14,235 nt of DNA, taken from contig JAIVGT010000195.1 of NCBI GenBank assembly GCA_020201485.1, positions 1-14,235 on the forward strand, read 5' to 3'. The notes beneath the pieces are model-generated. The model searched no databases, was not told the DNA's origin, and saw only the letters and a program-made list of their open reading frames with translations. Source of the DNA: Halobacteriales archaeon (lineage in GTDB: Archaea; Thermoplasmatota; SW-10-69-26; JACQPN01; JAIVGT01). The position numbers were made by a program, and so were the translations under genes. Below, piece after piece: positions 1,823-14,235 of this stretch (the stretch's first letter is position 1; each line of letters opens with the position of its first letter).

Positions 1823-1925
1823 GCCCCCTCAGCGGTCAGCCGCGCCTTGACCGCTCCGCCCTTCCTGTGGCACAACGTACTTGCCCGTCCGCGACGGTCG
1901 CAGTCGCGGCATGCCCAGCGCCAGC

Positions 1926-3494
1926 ATGGCGGACTACTTCCTGTACGACCGCCTGAAGGAAGCAAAAGGCGACCGCGTCGCCATCCGCACGCGCACCGAC
2001 GCCTGGACGTACGGCCGCGTCGCGCAGGAATCGGACCGCGTCGGCAACGCCCTGCGCGCCCTGGGCGTGCGCCCCGAGGAGCGCGTGCTCATCAGCATGC
2101 CCGACGTGCCGGAGTTCGCGGCCGGCATCTTCGGCGCGCTGCGCATCGGGGGCGTGGTGGCCATGGTGAACCCGCTCCTGCCCGCGGAGGACCTCGCGTA
2201 CTACGTGGGCTACACGCGCTGCTCCGCGCTGCTGTGCGACGCCGACGTCGCGGCCAAGCTCGGGCCCGTCATGGAGCACTTCCCGCTGCTGCGCGGCGTC
2301 ATCGTCCTCGGCGCGCCGCCTCCAGGCCAGCTGTTCCACTCCTGGGGCGACGCGGTGCGCGGCACGAGCACGTGCGAGCCGTGGCCTTCCGGCCCGGACG
2401 ACCCCGCCTACTGGCTGTTCACGAGCGGCTCGACGGGCAAGCCGAAGGCGGTCGTGCACCTCCAGCACGACTTCCCCTGGCTCACGGAGCGCTACGCGAA
2501 GCAGGTCCTCAGGATGACGCAGGACGACGTGACGCTCAGCGTCGCGCGCCTGTTCTTCGGCTACGGCACGGGCTCGAACCTGTTCTTCCCCTTCGCTGTC
2601 GGGGCCACGACCTGCCTCTTCCCTGAGAAGCCCACGCCCGAGGTGCTGTTCGAGGCCATCGCGCGCTTCAAGCCCACCATCCTCACGAGCGTGCCGACGA
2701 GCATCAACGCCATGGTCAGCCATCCGGACGCGGCGAAGCACGACCTGTCCTCGCTGCGGTGCGTCATCAGCGCGGGGGAAGCCCTGCCCCCGGAGCTGTT
2801 CCACCGCTGGAAGCAGCGCTTCGGCGTGGACATCCTCGACGGCATCGGCAGCGCCGAGACCTTCCACATCTACATCACGAACGCGCCCGGGGACGTCGTG
2901 CCCGGCTCCCTCGGCCGGCTCGTGCCCGGCTTCGAGGCGAAGCTCACGGACGAGCAAGGGACCGAGCTTCCCGACGGCGACATCGGCACGCTCTGGGTGA
3001 AGGGCGACAGCGTGGGCGTCGGCTACTGGCAGGCGCACGAGAAGTCGAAGGAGACGTTCCACGGGGATTGGGTGCGGAGCGCCGACCTGTTCCGCCGCGA
3101 CGCGGACGGGCGCTACTGGTACTGCGGCCGGGCGGACGACCTGCTCAAGGTCGGCGGCATGTTCGTCTCGCCCCTCGAGGTCGAGGACTGCCTGCTGCAG
3201 CACCCGGCGGTGCAGGAGTGCGCGCTCGTCGCCTACCAGGAGCAAGGCCTGGACAAGCCCATCGCCTTCGTCGTGGCCAAGGCGGGCGCGGCGCAGGACG
3301 AGGCCCTGGCCAAGGACATCGCGCGCTTCGTGAAGGGCAGGCTCGCCGCATACAAGTTCCCGCGCCGCGTGCGCTTCGTCCAGGACCTGCCGCGCAACGA
3401 CCGGGGCAAGGTGGAGCGAAAGAAGCTGCGCGAGGAGCTGGCCAAGGCCGGGCTGGGGCAGACCTTCGACACCGACCTGAGCAGGCGGCCCTGA
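1926..3494 (+). CDS. Benzoate-CoA ligase family protein (ANL superfamily acyl/aryl-CoA synthetase)
   Basis: This soluble enzyme of 522 aa activates a carboxylic acid with ATP to an acyl-adenylate and transfers it to coenzyme A. Motifs in order: phosphate loop TSGSTGKPK (166-174), FFGYGTGSNLFFPF (210-223), which forms part of the acid pocket in benzoate-CoA ligases, GIGSAETFHIYITN (306-319), GRADDLLKVGG (401-411), and PRNDRGKVERKKL with catalytic Lys495. The overall pattern, including the opening ADYFLYDR, fits the benzoate-CoA ligase family better than fatty acyl or acetyl-CoA synthetases, and the length is typical. ATG 1926 is chosen because the family homology begins there; ATG 1911 is an equally possible start and TTG 1881 less so. 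No Shine-Dalgarno is visible. The stop overlaps the start of the next gene. The exact substrate (benzoate, a hydroxybenzoate, or another aromatic acid) cannot be read from sequence. Confidence 0.85.
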   Translation: MADYFLYDRLKEAKGDRVAIRTRTDAWTYGRVAQESDRVGNALRALGVRPEERVLISMPDVPEFAAGIFGALRIGGVVAMVNPLLPAEDLAYYVGYTRCSALLCDADVAAKLGPVMEHFPLLRGVIVLGAPPPGQLFHSWGDAVRGTSTCEPWPSGPDDPAYWLFTSGSTGKPKAVVHLQHDFPWLTERYAKQVLRMTQDDVTLSVARLFFGYGTGSNLFFPFAVGATTCLFPEKPTPEVLFEAIARFKPTILTSVPTSINAMVSHPDAAKHDLSSLRCVISAGEALPPELFHRWKQRFGVDILDGIGSAETFHIYITNAPGDVVPGSLGRLVPGFEAKLTDEQGTELPDGDIGTLWVKGDSVGVGYWQAHEKSKETFHGDWVRSADLFRRDADGRYWYCGRADDLLKVGGMFVSPLEVEDCLLQHPAVQECALVAYQEQGLDKPIAFVVAKAGAAQDEALAKDIARFVKGRLAAYKFPRRVRFVQDLPRNDRGKVERKKLREELAKAGLGQTFDTDLSRRP

Positions 3495-4213
3495 TGGAGT
3501 TCGCCAGCGAGCCGTGGACGCGCGTCGCCGAGCTCGCCGCGCAGCGGGCCATCGTCCTCCTGCCCCTGGGGGCCATCGAGGCCCACGGGCCGCACTTGCC
3601 CCTGGAGACGGACAGCCTCCTGGCCCTCGCGCTGGCGCGGCGATGCGCGGAGCGGCTGCGGGCGCAGGGCAAGGTCGCGCTCGTGGCCCCCGCCATCGCC
3701 ACCACCGCCGCGTCCTTCGCCGCGGATTTCCCGGGCACGGTCAGCATCGACGCCGAGAGCGAGCGCCGCATCGTGGTGAACACGGTGCAAGCCCTGCATC
3801 GCCTGGGCGCGGCGCGGGTCGCGCTCGTGAACCTGCACTTCGACCCGGAGCACATGCGCGCCGTGAAGGGCGCGATGGCCGAGCTGGACGCGGCCCGGAC
3901 CGTGTTCCCGGACGTCACGCGCCGCGTCCACGCGCAGCGCATCGGCGGCGAGTTCGCGACCGGGGCGTGCCACGCCGGCGAGTTCGAGACGAGCATCCTG
4001 CTCGCCGTCGCCCCGGAGCGCGTGGATGGGTCCCACCGCGACCTCCCGCCGCGCGAGGTGGACCTGGCCGCGGCCATCCGCGAGGGGAAGCGCTCCTTCC
4101 GCGAGCTCGGCCTGGACCAGGCGTACTGCGGGCATCCGGCGACGGCCACGGCGGAGGAGGGCGAGCGGTTGCTCGGGGTCTTGGCCGACATCGTGCTGGA
4201 AGCCCTGGCTTGA
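3494..4213 (+). CDS. Creatininase-family metal-dependent amidohydrolase
   Basis: The 239-residue product matches the creatininase fold. The signature LPLGAIEAHGPHLPLETD gives metal ligands Glu29, His31 and Asp40, with the same spacing as Glu34, His36 and Asp45 of Pseudomonas creatininase. The next ligand segment reads VNLHFDPEH, so His115 and Asp117 take the place of creatininase His120 and Glu122; the formamide hydrolases of this family carry NGHGGN here instead. HAGEFETS (160-167) supplies the conserved glutamate region. The family hydrolyses C-N bonds (creatinine, formamides, lactam-like rings). The start at 3494 shares its A with the TGA of the CoA ligase, so the two are translationally coupled and probably act in one pathway, perhaps on an amide of an aromatic acid; that pairing is inference. 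No signal peptide, so cytoplasmic. Confidence 0.8.
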   Translation: MEFASEPWTRVAELAAQRAIVLLPLGAIEAHGPHLPLETDSLLALALARRCAERLRAQGKVALVAPAIATTAASFAADFPGTVSIDAESERRIVVNTVQALHRLGAARVALVNLHFDPEHMRAVKGAMAELDAARTVFPDVTRRVHAQRIGGEFATGACHAGEFETSILLAVAPERVDGSHRDLPPREVDLAAAIREGKRSFRELGLDQAYCGHPATATAEEGERLLGVLADIVLEALA

Positions 4214-7588: not shown

Positions 7589-10156
7589 CTACTTGTGCCC
7601 GTCCGAGGGCCCGGTCGGCGTGCCCACCGGCAGGAACACGAGCACGACGCCGTCCACGCGGCTGTCCGAGGTCCGGTAGGGCGTGATGTTCAGGCGGTAG
7701 GCGTGGCCGCGAGGGTCGTGCACGTCCATGGCCTTGGCGGCGAACCTGTGCAGCACGCCCAGCACTTCCCCGCGCAGGTCGGGGAGGAAGGGCTGGCGCA
7801 GGTCGGTGAGGGGCCGGCCGATGTCGGTCGGGATGAGGTTGAGCAGCTGCTGCGCGCTCGGCGTGAACCGGCGGATGCGCAGGTCCGGCCCGAGCATGAT
7901 GATGGGGATGCCCACGCTGTGCAGCAGGTTGAGCAGGTCGTTGTTCACGCGCTGCACGTCGGCGTTGCGCTGCTGCAGCTCCTCGTTGAGCGTGGTCAGC
8001 TCCTCGTTCGTGGACTGCAGCTCCTCCTTCGCCGTCTCCAGCTCCTCGTTGGCGCTCTGCAGCTCCTCGTTCGTGGACACGGCCTCCTCGTTCGCCGAGC
8101 GCAGCTCCTCCGTGGTGGCCTCGTAGTCCTCGATGAGGCGCTGCAGGTAGGTCCGCGTCTCCTCCAGCTCCCGCTGCTGGGCGGCGCGGGTCGCATCGCG
8201 GTCGGGCGACCGCGCTGGCCCGTGGAGCCAGCCGGGGAGCCAGCCGCGGCGCTCCCCCGCCTCGCGGGGACCCCGCGGCGCGCGCCCCTCCTCCTGGAAC
8301 ACGACCAGGGTGTACCGCTCCGTCCCCGCGCCGTCCAGGGGCACGGCCTCGAGCGTCACGCTGTGCCCGTCGGAGAGTCGCAGGTCCTCGCGTCGGACCG
8401 CGGCCCGCTGCGCTTGGGCCTCCTCGACCGCCTTCCGCAGCTCGATGCCCAGGCCGTCCCGGGCCATCTTCACGATGCTCAGGCTGGCCGGGCCGGGCGT
8501 GTGCTCCAGGTAGCGCCCGGTCCCGCCGCGGAAGTGCAGCACCTCGAGGTGCTCGTTGAGGACCACCGCCGCGTGCGGGCTGCGCTCCAGGAGCATGCGG
8601 TCCGCTTCCCGGAACACGTCCTGCTCGGTCGCGGGGGCGAGGCCGCGCGCCGGCACCGGGCGGGGCATGGCCGCGGCCCGGGGCGGGAGCGCCTGCTGCA
8701 GGACGTACGTCGGGACGTTGCGTTTCACGTAGATGCGCTGGTCCTTGTCCACGGCCTCGAACAGGTCCTCGGAGCGGCCCACGGACTCCGACGAGCCGAG
8801 CAGGAGGTAGCCGCCCGGCTTGAGCGCGTAGTGGATGGTGGCGAGGACGCGGCGCTGCAGCTCCGGCTCCATGTACACGAGCACGTTGCGGCAGCTCACG
8901 ATGTCCATGTTCGAGAACGGCGGGTCGTTGGTCACGTTGTGCACGGCGAAGACGCACACGCCGCGCACCGTCTTGCTCACGCGGTACCCGTTCTCGATGC
9001 GCTCGAAGAAGCGGATGAGGCGCTCCGGGGGCACGTCGTCGGCGATGGTCTCCGGGTAGCTGCCTTCGCGCGCCTGCCGCACGGCCTTCTCGCTCAGGTC
9101 GGTGCCGAAGACCTGCACCGGGACGTTCAGCCCGGCTCCCTGCAGGTACTCCAGGAGGAGGACGGCCACGGAGTACGTCTCCTCCCCGCTGGCGCAGCCG
9201 GCGACCCAGGCGCGGATGGGCTGCTCCGGGGAGCGGCCCGCCACCAGGCCGGGCAGGATGCGCTCGCGCAGGGCGTCGTACATCTCCGCCTCGCGGAAGA
9301 AGCGCGTGACGTGGATGAGCAGCTCCTCGTGCAGGACGCGCGCCTCGCGCGGGTCGGTCCGCACCAGCTCCGTGTACTCCCTCACGGAGTCCCTGCGCGT
9401 GGCCACGATGCGGCGGTGGATGCGGCGCGTCACCGTGGTGCGCTTGTACTGGCTGAAGTCCATGCCGGTGCGGTTGCGCAGCACCTTCAGCAGCTCGCCG
9501 AGGTCCTCGCCCTCGATGGGTGGGCCCTTGTCGTCCGGCGGGCCCTGCCGGGCGATGCGGGCCAGCTCCGCGGCGATCTCCTGCGGGGGCATGACGAAGT
9601 CCACGCTGCCGGACGAGATGGCGTTCCAGGGCATCTCGCGGTACTTGGCCGACTCCAGGCTCTGCGCGAACGTGAAGCCGCCCGCGGCCCGGATGTGCCT
9701 CAGGCCCTCCGTGCCGTCGGACAGCGCGCCGGACAGCACGACGCCCAGGGCGCGCGGCCCGGCGTCCTCGGCCACGGAGCGGAAGAAGCGGTCGATGACG
9801 TGCGTGTTCGGCTTCCCGAGGTCGCGCGCCGCGAGGTGGAGCGCGCCGTTCCGGAGGGCGAGCTGGGCGTTCGCCGGGATGATGTACACGTGGTCGGGCA
9901 GGACAGGCATGTCCTGCTCCACCTCCTGCACCGGCATGGCCGTCATGCGCTGCAGCACCTGCGACATGCGGCTCTCGTGCCGCGGGTCGAGGTGCACGAC
10001 GAGCACGAAGGCCAGGCCCGTGTCCGCGGGAAGCGCGTGGAGCAGCTCGGTGAACGCCTCGAACCAGCCCGCCGAGGCGCCGATGGCCACGACCTGGGGC
10101 CGTGCGCTCCCCCGGCTCGCCTGCTCCTGGCTGGCAGGTGTGGTCGGGGGCGCCAT
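7589..10156 (-). CDS. CheB methylesterase - CheR methyltransferase - coiled coil - PAS fusion protein
   Basis: An 855-residue soluble signalling protein. Residues 20-205 are a CheB catalytic domain with a complete triad: Ser28 in GASAG, His55 in VVHLDPRH, Asp147 in LSGALSDG. Residues ~218-480 are CheR: an N-terminal helical part, the S-adenosylmethionine loop AGCASGEETYS (319-329), FGTDLS (350-355), and CRNVLVYM (422-429). A PAS-like stretch follows (~515-622), then a heptad coiled coil (~656-745) and a C-terminal PAS_10 domain (~745-845). There is no receiver domain, and no kinase domain at the end, although some relatives carry one. This architecture is known as a fusion in bacteria and archaea, usually in stand-alone sensory loci. 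The first motif is GASAGW, with Trp31 where Gly is usual. ATG 10156 is chosen because the CheB homology begins right after it; upstream residues are Arg-rich. Confidence 0.9.
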   Translation of the reverse strand: MAPPTTPASQEQASRGSARPQVVAIGASAGWFEAFTELLHALPADTGLAFVLVVHLDPRHESRMSQVLQRMTAMPVQEVEQDMPVLPDHVYIIPANAQLALRNGALHLAARDLGKPNTHVIDRFFRSVAEDAGPRALGVVLSGALSDGTEGLRHIRAAGGFTFAQSLESAKYREMPWNAISSGSVDFVMPPQEIAAELARIARQGPPDDKGPPIEGEDLGELLKVLRNRTGMDFSQYKRTTVTRRIHRRIVATRRDSVREYTELVRTDPREARVLHEELLIHVTRFFREAEMYDALRERILPGLVAGRSPEQPIRAWVAGCASGEETYSVAVLLLEYLQGAGLNVPVQVFGTDLSEKAVRQAREGSYPETIADDVPPERLIRFFERIENGYRVSKTVRGVCVFAVHNVTNDPPFSNMDIVSCRNVLVYMEPELQRRVLATIHYALKPGGYLLLGSSESVGRSEDLFEAVDKDQRIYVKRNVPTYVLQQALPPRAAAMPRPVPARGLAPATEQDVFREADRMLLERSPHAAVVLNEHLEVLHFRGGTGRYLEHTPGPASLSIVKMARDGLGIELRKAVEEAQAQRAAVRREDLRLSDGHSVTLEAVPLDGAGTERYTLVVFQEEGRAPRGPREAGERRGWLPGWLHGPARSPDRDATRAAQQRELEETRTYLQRLIEDYEATTEELRSANEEAVSTNEELQSANEELETAKEELQSTNEELTTLNEELQQRNADVQRVNNDLLNLLHSVGIPIIMLGPDLRIRRFTPSAQQLLNLIPTDIGRPLTDLRQPFLPDLRGEVLGVLHRFAAKAMDVHDPRGHAYRLNITPYRTSDSRVDGVVLVFLPVGTPTGPSDGHK
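7976..8122 (-). repeat. Seven 21-bp in-gene repeats encoding coiled-coil heptads
   Basis: Units of exactly 21 bp, most beginning CAGCTCCTC on the plus strand, repeat seven times. They encode heptads of the EELQSAN/EELETAK/EELTTLN kind, and the repetition is explained by the coiled coil that links the CheR region to the last PAS domain. Heptads of this sequence are typical of CheB-CheR-PAS fusions. Confidence 0.85.
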
Positions 10157-10164
10157 CGCACATG

Positions 10165-10210
10165 CTAGGGCGTTTCCGGCCTTGAACCTAGGGCGTTCCC
10201 GGCCTTGAAC
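10165..10210. repeat. 23-bp tandem direct repeat in the divergent control region
   Basis: Copy 1 is 10165-10187 and copy 2 is 10188-10210. Each begins CTAGGGCGTT and ends GGCCTTGAAC, and they differ at one base (T versus C at the eleventh position). They lie head-to-tail between the divergent starts at 10156 and 10321, about 9-54 nt upstream of the CheB-CheR fusion start. Likely a pair of regulator-binding sites or a recent tandem duplication of the promoter; CCTAGG at the junction lies about 33 nt before the fusion's ATG. Confidence 0.7.
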
Positions 10211-10285
10211 CATGCCCAAGTGGGGGGAGCGCGAGGCTCGTCTTCGCCATGGATGGGTCAAGCGTGGCGCTCGGCAACGTCCGCG

Positions 10286-10296
10286 AACCTTCAAGG
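10286..10296 (+). promoter_or_regulatory. Candidate TATA-like element of the plus-strand sensory operon
   Basis: CCTTCAAGG (10288-10296) is an AT-containing near-palindrome about 29 nt upstream of ATG 10321. It resembles the CCTTAAGG upstream of the MFS gene. Position-based proposal only. Confidence 0.25.
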
Positions 10297-10320
10297 CGAG
10301 GCGGGGCCCACCCCCCGGGC

Positions 10321-10812
10321 ATGGCGACCGGCGGGCTCTCCATCCAGCGGGAGGAGCTGGCGAGCTTCCTGCAGGACGTGCCCCAGGGGGGCCACGCCGT
10401 GCTGCGCAGCGAAGGCATCGGCCTCGAGGAAGCGCTCGACGCCTGCCTCGCCGCGGCCGAGGACCAGGACGAGGAGCTGCGCGTGCTCGGCGTGCGCCGC
10501 GAGCGCGTCGCCCCTGCGGCGCGGCGCGTCGAGCCGCGCATCCCGGACGGCGACCTGGACGGCTTCGTGCGCGGCCTCGTCGCCCCGGCGGGGGGCGGCG
10601 TGCTGCTCGTCATCGACGCCGAGGGCTCGGCGCGGGGCTCCAGCGTGTCCCGGCACGTCGCGTTCGAATCCGGGCTGCGCGCGCACGCCGGCGGCATGCC
10701 GCGCGTGGTCTGCATCTACTCCCGCGAGGCTGTGGCCTTGTTCGGCCCGCGCTTCCCCGAGGTCCGGGGCATGCACGACTTCGGGCACCTGCTCGAACGA
10801 GGCGCGGCATGA
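10321..10812 (+). CDS. Uncharacterised protein, possible MEDS-like sensory domain
   Basis: The 163-residue protein begins MATGGLSIQREELASFLQDV. Visible order: an N-terminal helix, QGGHAVLRSEGIGLEEALDA, a helical LAAAEDQDEELRVLGV segment, GGGVLLVIDAEGSARG, FESGLRAHAGGMPRVVCIYS, and FPEVRGMHDFGHLL. The alternation of strands and helices, an acidic residue before the penultimate strand, the 'RVVCIYSRE' strand and the following His-containing segment recall the MEDS (DcmR sensory) domain, a degenerate RecA-like fold common in archaeal signalling proteins. This is a tentative fold-level match; no Walker motif is present. ATG 10321 is chosen because GC-rich third positions begin there; ATG 10249 is possible. 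It overlaps the CheB gene by ATGA, so the two are co-translated and probably work together. Confidence 0.6.
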   Translation: MATGGLSIQREELASFLQDVPQGGHAVLRSEGIGLEEALDACLAAAEDQDEELRVLGVRRERVAPAARRVEPRIPDGDLDGFVRGLVAPAGGGVLLVIDAEGSARGSSVSRHVAFESGLRAHAGGMPRVVCIYSREAVALFGPRFPEVRGMHDFGHLLERGAA

Positions 10813-11423
10813 GCCCAGGGGGGCTGGCCGACCTCGCCCCCCACCGCATCGGCGTCGTGGCCGGCTCCGCCGGAGCCATCCCGCCGATGCTGGAGCTGGT
10901 GCGCCGCCTGGCGCACCGCGACCGTGCCTGCCTGTTCATCATCTACCACCGCGCCGGCGACCACCACTTCGATTGGAGCAAGCTGCTGCCGAAGGACAGC
11001 GGCTTCCGCGCCGTGATGGCCGAGCCGGGCTTGGCGGTGGAGCGCAACCACGTGTACTACCCGCACCTGTCCGAGGATCTCATCGTGCGCGACGGCCGGC
11101 TCGACGTGTTCCCGCCGGCGCAGCGGCTCCATCCCAACATCGACCGCCTGCTCATCAGCCTCGCCGCCGAGTACGGCCCGCGCGTCGTGGCCACGCTGCT
11201 CTCCGGCTACGGCCGCGACGGCGTCGAGGGCCTGCGCGCCGTCCAACGCGCCGGAGGCGTGACCGTCGCCGTGGACCCGTCGCGCGCCCAGGCACCGAAC
11301 CTTCCCTTCGCCGGCATCGACGCCGGCGTGGTGGACCTCGTGCTGTCGCCGGACGACATCGTCGACCGCGTGCTGGCGCTGGTCGAGGGCGAACGCCCCC
11401 ACCTGGGCAAGGCGTTCCGGTAG
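10809..11423 (+). CDS. Stand-alone CheB-type protein-glutamate methylesterase domain
   Basis: The 204-residue product is a CheB catalytic domain without the usual N-terminal receiver. Likely triad: Ser20 in AGSAG, His47 in FIIYHRAGD, Asp137 in LLSGYGRDG. CheB removes methyl groups from, or deamidates, glutamate/glutamine side chains of chemoreceptors. Sequence around each catalytic residue departs from the norm: the usual GASAGG is AGSAGA, and the usual HLxPxH is HRAGDH, so its target may not be a standard chemoreceptor. It begins within the stop of the preceding possible MEDS-like gene (ATGA overlap), and is divergent from a second CheB domain in the CheB-CheR fusion. The paired methylesterases in one locus could act on different substrates. 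The gene is followed by the 430-bp leader region of the surface-protein gene. Confidence 0.8.
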   Translation: MSPGGLADLAPHRIGVVAGSAGAIPPMLELVRRLAHRDRACLFIIYHRAGDHHFDWSKLLPKDSGFRAVMAEPGLAVERNHVYYPHLSEDLIVRDGRLDVFPPAQRLHPNIDRLLISLAAEYGPRVVATLLSGYGRDGVEGLRAVQRAGGVTVAVDPSRAQAPNLPFAGIDAGVVDLVLSPDDIVDRVLALVEGERPHLGKAFR

Positions 11424-11853: not shown

Positions 11854-14235
11854 ATGTTCGCGCGCCGTCAGCACGTCCTGTCTGTCCTTGGGCTCGTCGC
11901 CGTCTTGCTGTTCAACCTGGTGCCGGTCGTGCCCGCTGACGCGCCGCCTTCGAATGCCGAGGGTACCGTCGTCGTCCACGTCGCCTTCGCGGCCTTCGGC
12001 CAGTACCACACCGTCGGCTACGTGCCAGACACGCCGAACTTCGGCACGGGCACGATCACGTGCGGCACGGGCTCGACGTGCGAGAACAACACCGCGTACG
12101 GCTCGGGCAAGCTGACGTGCAGCGCCGGGAGCACGTGCAAGAACGACACATCCTGGAACAGCACCATCACGTGCCAGGCGGTGAGCGTGTGCAACAACGC
12201 CGCTTACGGCAACGGCCACACGACGTGCCCGCCCCTGGTCGCCACGTGCACGGCCGGGGCGACGGGCTCCGCAGGGACGAAGGCCTGCGCCGCAGCCTGC
12301 TCCTCCGGCACGAAAGCCGTCTTGCTGTGCAACCCGAACGCCACCTGCCTGGACAGCGCCGCGAGGGTGAATGGCACCATCTCCGTCGGCATCTTCAGCG
12401 TGAGCGCGACCAACACCGCGTCCGACCGCGCGACCCTCGCCTGCGGGGCGAACGTCACCTGCACCGGGAACGCCGCCCTGGGAACATCGTTCATCGCGTG
12501 CGTGGACACGAGCACGTGCACCGGCAACGTCGCCGCGGTCAACGCCAACATCACGTGCGGCATCGGTGCGGCGTGCAAGGGGAACATCGCGAACAACGAG
12601 AGCCTCCTGTCGTGCAACACCACGGCCCTCTGCGAGAACAACCACGTGCTCGGCAACGCTTCGTTCACCTGCAACGCGAACGCTTGGTGCGTGAACAACA
12701 CCGTCGCCGGGAACGTCTCGTTCACTTGCGGCAGCGGGGCGGTGTGCCGGAACAACACCATCGTGTCCTACGTCGGCATCTCGGCCGCGCCGCCGACACC
12801 ACCGACGTTCTCCCGGGCCGTGACGGTTCCGCTGGTGGATTCGGAGAACGACTGGATCATGGACGGCAATCTGTCCGCCGACACGACGGACAGCACCGTC
12901 AAGGAGTACTGCCAAGCCCAAGGTCGCAGCGGACACAGCCGCTTCATCGAGAGCACGGGCATCGACTTCACCCTGCACCTCAATGGCACCGCGGATTGCG
13001 CCAACGCGAACTACAACGTCACCCTTCTCGTGAACAACCACGGCTTGGACCAGATGGAGGACCTGTGCAACACGCAGCCCAAGGACACGACCAAGGACTG
13101 CGCTGGCAAGTACTGCCCTCCCTCCCCGGGCGCGCCGTCAGGCTCGCCGTTCACGAACTACTTCTCGCCAGTTGGTTGCGAGGCGCACATCCGCCTCGGC
13201 AACCTGAGCAACCTCGCAGCGCACCCGGTGCTCGCGAACTTCACGGGCTTCGGCGACAACGACTTCGGCTTCGGTTATCCAGGGGAATACGATGCCACGG
13301 TGGACACAACGACGAGCGTGACGTTCTCCGATGTGACGAACATCGCCGTCCCGGGGAATCCGTGGCTGGTCCGCTTGGACATCCAGGATTTCAAGCTTCT
13401 GTTCACCGGAGGCCCGAACAACCCGCCGGGCGGCGATGACTGGAACATCGATGCGCGGGTCAACGCGACGGACGGGTCCTGCAGCAGCCTCGTCCGCACG
13501 ATGCACAGCAGGTTCATCCAACCGAGCAGGCTCGACCTCCTCATCCGCAACGCCACCGGATGCGAGAATCAGACGCTGGACCTGCACGTCGTGCCGTACA
13601 CGCACCTGTTCGACTCGTTCATCGACGTGAACGGGGACGCCACAGGCACCTCGGGCGCAGGAACCACCACCTGCGACGCCTCCGCCTCGTGCTCGTCGAA
13701 CAACGCCTGGGGAAGCGGCATCGTCTGGTGCGGCCCGCTGACCACGTGCAAGAGCGCGACCGCGTTCGGCAATGGCAACGTGACCTGCTTGGCCGGGTCG
13801 AAGTGCGAGAACGACACCGCGCCCGGCTACTCCGACCACGTGGGCGCGACGCAAGCCGGGCCGTGCCCGCCGCAGATCGGCCCGAACGCGACGACGCAGC
13901 TGCCGGATGGTCGCGCAGTGGGAACGCTGTGCGACATCAGCACGCAGATCATCTTGACCGATGGCTGGTACACCGGAACGCAATACGCCAACGGCACGTA
14001 CGACAGCCAAGCCGACTCGAACGATGGCAACTTGACCTACAACGTCAGCGTTCTGAGGGCGCCCGATGTCAACACGACGCACATCGCGTTCCTCCTCACC
14101 CCCGACATCGCCAACGACCCGCTCGAGAACGATTGGCTCCTCGATGGCCAGGCCACCACGAGCGATCCGGTCTGCCACGCGGAGTGGCGCACGTCGCACA
14201 GCCGGTACTACCCGCCGAGGGGTTTGGACCTCACG
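11854..14235 (+). CDS. Secreted, cysteine-rich, N-glycosylation-rich solenoid repeat surface protein (3' end outside window)
   Basis: The frame is open from ATG 11854 to the last base (794 codons). A signal peptide is clear: RR at 4-5, a hydrophobic core at 8-27, and a likely signal peptidase I site after ADA (28-30). Three blocks of ~19-residue repeats with C-x5-C per coil occupy ~70-132, 159-298 and 607-651, mostly of the form TC-x5-C-x-[NG]-N. Between them lie modules with DW ... C-x7-HSR[FY] at 331-372, 527-562 and 758-793. About 28 N-x-S/T sequons were counted by eye, most in the repeats and loops, pointing to archaeal-type N-glycosylation. The repeats suggest a parallel beta-solenoid with one disulfide per coil. 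No enzyme motif is seen; roles in the cell envelope, adhesion or surface binding are guesses. No family recognised. No Shine-Dalgarno; the palindrome at 11814 may be its promoter. Confidence 0.85.
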   Translation, partial: MFARRQHVLSVLGLVAVLLFNLVPVVPADAPPSNAEGTVVVHVAFAAFGQYHTVGYVPDTPNFGTGTITCGTGSTCENNTAYGSGKLTCSAGSTCKNDTSWNSTITCQAVSVCNNAAYGNGHTTCPPLVATCTAGATGSAGTKACAAACSSGTKAVLLCNPNATCLDSAARVNGTISVGIFSVSATNTASDRATLACGANVTCTGNAALGTSFIACVDTSTCTGNVAAVNANITCGIGAACKGNIANNESLLSCNTTALCENNHVLGNASFTCNANAWCVNNTVAGNVSFTCGSGAVCRNNTIVSYVGISAAPPTPPTFSRAVTVPLVDSENDWIMDGNLSADTTDSTVKEYCQAQGRSGHSRFIESTGIDFTLHLNGTADCANANYNVTLLVNNHGLDQMEDLCNTQPKDTTKDCAGKYCPPSPGAPSGSPFTNYFSPVGCEAHIRLGNLSNLAAHPVLANFTGFGDNDFGFGYPGEYDATVDTTTSVTFSDVTNIAVPGNPWLVRLDIQDFKLLFTGGPNNPPGGDDWNIDARVNATDGSCSSLVRTMHSRFIQPSRLDLLIRNATGCENQTLDLHVVPYTHLFDSFIDVNGDATGTSGAGTTTCDASASCSSNNAWGSGIVWCGPLTTCKSATAFGNGNVTCLAGSKCENDTAPGYSDHVGATQAGPCPPQIGPNATTQLPDGRAVGTLCDISTQIILTDGWYTGTQYANGTYDSQADSNDGNLTYNVSVLRAPDVNTTHIAFLLTPDIANDPLENDWLLDGQATTSDPVCHAEWRTSHSRYYPPRGLDLT
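12061..12249 (+). repeat. First C-x5-C coil block of the surface protein
   Basis: Coils begin at Cys70, 89, 107 and 125 with partner cysteines at 76, 95, 113 and 132. Spacing is 19, 18 and 18 residues, so this block is less regular than the second, and its last pair has an extra residue. The repeat is followed by an irregular 26-residue segment with extra cysteines (145 and 149). Confidence 0.75.
12328..12747 (+). repeat. Second C-x5-C coil block, exact 57-bp (19-residue) period
   Basis: First cysteines are at 159, 197, 216, 235, 254, 273 and 292 and partners at 165, 203, 222, 241, 260, 279 and 298. Intervals are exactly 19 residues, or 38 where one coil (178-196) has lost both cysteines but keeps the phase (Val178 and Ser184). 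That makes eight consecutive coils. Confidence 0.85.
12844..12969 (+). repeat. DW...C-x7-HSR module, copy 1 (residues 331-372)
   Basis: ENDWIMDG begins the copy; Cys353 precedes His361-Ser-Arg-Phe by eight residues, and IDF follows nine after the His. It carries six extra residues between DW and Cys compared with copies 2 (13432-13539) and 3 (14125-14235). Confidence 0.7.
13432..13539 (+). repeat. DW...C-x7-HSR module, copy 2 (residues 527-562)
   Basis: GDDWNIDA opens the copy; Cys543 is eight residues before His551-Ser-Arg-Phe, and LDL follows at +9. The DW-to-Cys distance (13) equals copy 3. Confidence 0.7.
13672..13806 (+). repeat. Third C-x5-C coil block of the surface protein
   Basis: Cys607/613, 626/632 and 645/651 again repeat at exactly 19 residues. 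The block sits between the second and third DW/HSR modules, so the architecture alternates solenoid segments with a second domain type. Confidence 0.8.
14125..14235 (+). repeat. DW...C-x7-HSR module, copy 3 (residues 758-794, cut by window end)
   Basis: ENDWLLDG opens the copy; Cys774 is eight residues before His782-Ser-Arg-Tyr, and LDL follows at +9. The module is interrupted by the end of the window, so more alternating modules probably follow. Confidence 0.7.

Follow-up and report, generated by a model that had tools for sequence, protein, structure and literature searches.

A cysteine-paired 19-residue repeat with a predicted beta-helix fold in a putative surface protein of an uncultured Thermoplasmatota archaeon

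What kind of protein carries a C-x5-C pair in nearly every turn of a 19-residue repeat, and what might it do for an archaeon? The question is raised by a gene at the end of contig JAIVGT010000195.1, part of a draft genome (GCA_020201485.1; 2.24 Mb, 404 contigs, 77% complete) recorded as a Halobacteriales archaeon. The window analysed here is that entire contig, 14,235 bases, and the gene runs from an ATG at 11854 with no stop before the contig's last base, giving 794 visible residues of a protein that we call P0001. On balance we favour a secreted, probably cell-surface rod or stalk protein with a disulfide-pinned 19-residue beta-helix, serving adhesion or cell-cell association. The features of the gene are as follows, with residues numbered from the ATG.

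11854..14235, + strand: gene of the solenoid protein, open to the contig end
11854..11940, + strand: signal-peptide-like N-terminus, residues 1-29, read directly from the sequence
12043..12210, + strand: solenoid block one, residues 64-119, coils at C70, C89 and C107
12211..12309, + strand: irregular stretch, residues 120-152, with C125-x6-C132 and C145-x3-C149
12310..12765, + strand: solenoid block two, residues 153-304, eight coils of exactly 19 residues, from the repeat and predicted strands
12367..12423, + strand: Cys-less coil, residues 172-190
12838..13041, + strand: D domain copy 1, about residues 329-396, with both D motifs and the Cys pair
13429..13626, + strand: D domain copy 2, about residues 526-591
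13654..13824, + strand: solenoid block three, residues 601-657, coils at C607, C626 and C645, from the repeat
14119..14235, + strand: D domain copy 3, from about residue 756, identified from homologues and cut by the contig end

C-x5-C pairs lie at residues 70, 89 and 107 (block one), 159, 197, 216, 235, 254, 273 and 292 (block two), and 607, 626 and 645 (block three), and a slot at residue 178 is in phase without Cys. The original prediction, of thirteen such coils plus one Cys-less coil in three blocks, had these counts and blocks right, and the span it gave, 12061-13806, comprises the codons of C70 to C651; the spacing is exactly 19 across the eight slots of block two and through block three, as it had stated, and 19 then 18 in block one, as it had implied. 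The repeat is not due to chance: C-x5-C occurs 13 times versus a mean of 2.1 (maximum 8) in 10,000 shuffles of the protein, and pairs 19 apart occur eight times versus a shuffled mean of 0.004 (maximum 1). In P0001 and in each of its two homologues, self-identity over residues 61-305 peaks at lag 19 and next at 38 (lags 5-44), and the coil consensus is G-N-[GS]-T-phi-T-C-G-A-G-[AS]-T-C-K-N-N-T-A-L. Comparison of residues 60-306 with block three (hhalign E 8.5e-8) indicates that blocks one and two (residues 64-304) and block three are the same repeat.

The homologues, P0002 (891 residues) and P0003 (893 residues), are all that full-protein searches of 5.8 billion proteins returned besides P0001 (about 8,000 best-word candidates scored in each), and the solenoid alone found no match there at E<=10; the word and length limits of these searches mean that distant relatives may be missed. 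Since both homologues align with P0001 over its whole length, at 59-62% identity, the gene is real. They share the C-terminal end ...GWMV[ST]GGSP, and from them about 95 further residues of P0001, whose C-terminus is cut, are expected past the contig end. Each has 14 C-x5-C pairs, with both Cys present in the coil where P0001 has V for the first and S for the second, and both keep the four Cys of the irregular stretch between blocks one and two. Over the three proteins, 41 of 42 coil slots have both Cys, one has neither and none has a single Cys; the two missing coil Cys among 28 would be partners by chance with a probability of 1/27, and the joint loss gives modest evidence for pairing.

The beta-solenoid fold that had been proposed from the spacing is supported by structure prediction, which places strands at -3 to 0, +5 to +7 and +10 to +12 relative to the first Cys in all eight coils of block two (+12 in seven); pLDDT (predicted local distance difference test) climbs within the block from 49-66 at residues 150-189 to 88-94 at residues 220-299. 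Among the matches listed in a structure search with the predicted fold, the closest by a wide margin are passengers of self-associating autotransporters, namely TibA (4q1q) and Ag43 (4kh3, 7ko9, 7koh and 7kob); the handedness of the helix would be that of these templates, from which it is taken over. Insect antifreeze proteins are absent among the best 50 structure matches listed, which carries no weight either way, and structure matches in BFVD (best E 1.2e-5, TM [template modelling] score <=0.60 in the rows listed, mixed annotations) were not used. Ag43 members are described as three-stranded helices that self-associate (PMC8993888), and TibA as carrying sugars along its helix (PMC4358343). 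The self-identity of K-12 Ag43, measured here, is strongest at lag 19. When the mean hydropathy of seven Ag43 rungs was slid over the 29 Cys-bearing coils in all 19 registers, the best register aligned C(0) with V and C(+6) with A of Ag43 (r 0.59; P 0.049 from shuffled columns, taking the maximum over registers). BLOSUM62 favours the same register more clearly (-0.9 versus -3.7 for the next), and the V and S of the Cys-less coil stand at the same two positions. We read this as a disulfide that may stand in for a small hydrophobic core pair, the Val-Ala contact of the Ag43 repeat.

We propose that each 19-residue coil winds once round a compact three-strand beta-helix, as in the self-associating autotransporters of E. 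coli, with phi(-2), C(0), C(+6) and A/V(+11) facing inward. C(0) and C(+6) would form one disulfide per coil in place of the Val-Ala contact, and Asn at +9 would stack at a corner into a polar ladder. Three copies of the Cys-paired D domain would alternate with the solenoid blocks, and the rod would present faces with much Thr, Ser and Asn and many N-x-S/T sequons for adhesion or cell-cell association. D is recognised by the motifs DW..D[GA] and HSR[FY] and by a pair of conserved Cys with a spacing of 27-29 residues; its copies are related to one another by hhalign (D1/D2 E 1.2e-7, D1/D3 E 1.1e-10, D2/D3 E 4.3e-9), no Pfam family matches it at E<=10, and it would appear to be a separate, undescribed domain. 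Sequons occur at twice or more the expected number, with 28 observed versus 13.0 expected in P0001 and 32 and 35 versus 13.2 and 14.8 in the homologues; in the eight-coil block they fall at coil position -5 in 6/12 cases in each homologue and in only 3/10 in P0001. Glycosylation is possible, since the oligosaccharyltransferase STT3 is found in 6/6 class relatives, though not in the genome's own draft.

Several points weigh against the stalk or adhesin we favour. The structure model rests on an alignment of only three sequences; pLDDT is 31-72 outside residues 190-304 (51-72 in block one, 31-49 in the irregular stretch), and the whole-protein model, which has a helix at residues 3-22, is poor (mean pLDDT 38.7). 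Foldseek by itself matched no PDB entry at E<=0.001; TibA ranked second in its list (E 0.0016, TM 0.41) and Ag43 fifth, with unrelated helices ahead of or between them. The outcome of the register test is marginal, with a second-best offset of 6 at 0.57 by hydropathy, and its seven rungs were hand-picked out of 19 listed rows. No membrane anchor was seen by eye at the C-terminus of P0002 or P0003. Each full-length homologue has 46 Cys, whereas the 41 visible in P0001 are an odd number; judging by P0002, three more should follow beyond the contig end. STT3 and VKOR were both not found in the genome's own 77%-complete assembly, and VKOR, present in only 3/6 class relatives and not in the same-family one, is mixed evidence for disulfide formation. 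Of the extracellular, disulfide-stapled solenoid first put forward, the fold is supported by prediction, while secretion is probable and the disulfides likely.

The likeness to TibA, Ag43 and AIDA-I lies in the 19-residue repeat, the three-stranded beta-helix (here by predicted fold only) and a best register that pairs inward residues. The differences lie in the host, an archaeon, in the Cys pair of almost all coils, in the alternating D domains and in the N-x-S/T sequons; in addition, the autotransporter barrel (PF03797), found in Ag43, was not found in the two full-length homologues. The Pfam AIDA family (PF16168) matches K-12 Ag43, run as a positive control, at E 1.7e-56, but none of the three proteins at E<=10 and none of 389 genomes of the phylum including the source genome, and convergence on the autotransporter helix is therefore a simpler reading than remote common descent, which is possible too. 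The fuller version, an independently evolved archaeal counterpart of TibA and Ag43 with about a dozen one-per-coil disulfides and a column of N-glycan sequons, used in cell-cell adhesion, is possible but doubtful.

Of the possible roles, we put that of a surface stalk or adhesin first, because of the fold analogy with self-associating adhesins; a structural part in the envelope comes next, and the binding of ice or metal ranks low. A component of the envelope itself, such as an S-layer-like glycoprotein or sheath, would fit the signal-like N-terminus, the sequon excess, STT3 in all six class relatives and the three repeated D domains. We nevertheless think it unlikely: none of the three proteins matches a Pfam family at E<=10, no NCBIfam family scores above its cut-off (one row lies below, at E 0.38), and a profile of the three proteins found no homologue in 388 other genomes of the phylum, six of the same class included, so this would not belong to the core envelope proteins of the lineage.

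The original prediction had compared the repeat with insect antifreeze proteins, and the autotransporter passengers fit better. In the Tenebrio molitor protein, coils of 12 residues carry a C-x5-C disulfide and a continuous T-x-T face binds ice; here C-x5-C occupies 13/14 slots, but the period is 19 and there is no such continuous face. Thr does occur at -1 in 20/39 coils and at -3 in 14/39, as an outward Thr array of insect or algal type would need, but strict T-x-T at -3/-1 is scattered over 3, 2 and 4 of 14 coils in the three proteins ([ST]-x-[ST] over 6, 4 and 4), and in none of them do other i/i+2 pairs of coil positions reach three T-x-T. The ice-binding adhesin domain of Marinomonas primoryensis (3p4g), also drawn on originally, is Ca2+-dependent and not known to have a disulfide per coil, and no RTX or Ca2+ repeat family of this type matches in Pfam at E<=10. 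A Cys-rich ice-binding protein of Chloromonas sp. is described as secreted, disulfide-bonded and, by homology model, a three-sided beta-solenoid whose eleven coils bear loops that project from one face; its 15 Cys are grouped on the concave side and predicted to cross-link loops, rather than being spread as one pair per coil (PMC4838330). We regard an ice-binding role as very improbable. Slightly less probable still is that the Cys stay reduced and bind metal ions or clusters along the rod, as their stacking at two positions in nearly every coil and the lack of a VKOR hit in the source genome might suggest; against this, Cys are lost jointly in one coil and never singly, the location is probably extracellular, and C-x5-C is a known disulfide spacing in the Tenebrio protein. 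A beta-helix polysaccharide lyase or epimerase is the least probable, as such enzymes have longer, irregular coils and here eight coils without inserted loops have identical strands and no Pfam family matches at E<=10.

Further searches found little else like the solenoid gene. It had no match in 59 relatives, which together with the 388 other genomes points to a sparse, accessory gene. A four-coil profile run on the 389 phylum genomes gave four rows in the gene itself and four elsewhere (E 0.002-0.005), and only the former held up: three outside rows have stop codons inside, and the fourth (L006) lies in a Cys-containing open reading frame, without C-x5-C pairs 19 apart in any frame. PDB sequences gave nothing for P0001 at E<=1, and four GlmU rows for the coil profile (E 0.97-3.3) were rejected. 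P0001 against genome contigs gave 10 pattern stretches and a homologue-alignment search of viral contigs 37, none confirmed; tblastn with P0002 against phages and plasmids gave none at E 0.1. In the open-licence literature searched we found no description of an archaeal or disulfide beta-solenoid of this kind, nor of a 19-residue adhesin-type helix with a Cys pair per coil in an archaeal host, in keeping with the initial impression that no such archaeal family had been described.

The probable archaeal origin suggested from the sequence is upheld by RpoB', used for placement because no archaeal small-subunit ribosomal RNA was found in the genome. RpoB' groups among Thermoplasmatota with Centralia_MAG_189 (83% identical) and with CSSed11_322R1 and SW_10_69_26 (75% each), with clade support of 100/97; the Centralia genome sits on a long branch whose exact position is less sure. 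One of these records, JAJPHT010000046.1 (L011), is titled 'Proteobacteria bacterium isolate Centralia_MAG_189'; the RpoB' that it carries is archaeal and clusters with those of the present genome and SW_10_69_26, so that this title is likely to be in error. Assignment of the contig to its genome is probably correct, because the best match of the contig's CheB-CheR-PAS protein (44% identical; 20 relatives searched) lies in a genome of the same class. This fusion (7589-10294, - strand) lies next to a second CheB-like gene on the opposite strand (10212-11423, +) and has single-frame matches across nearly its whole length in two class relatives (G005 and G001). Elsewhere on the contig, an AMP-binding ligase gene (1911-3494, +) abuts a creatininase-family gene (3494-4213, +), which suggests one operon.

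If the disulfide-pinned helix is as we propose, a compact 19-residue three-strand helix can be built with a disulfide replacing the Val-Ala core contact. The solved examples of such a helix found here are E. coli surface adhesins, and its rise in an archaeon, where nothing points to a shared origin, would be a clean convergence on one coil geometry; the design of very stable solenoids would also gain a natural template. The protein is, in addition, a candidate for a surface or adhesion role in the uncultured SW_10_69_26 clade of Thermoplasmatota.
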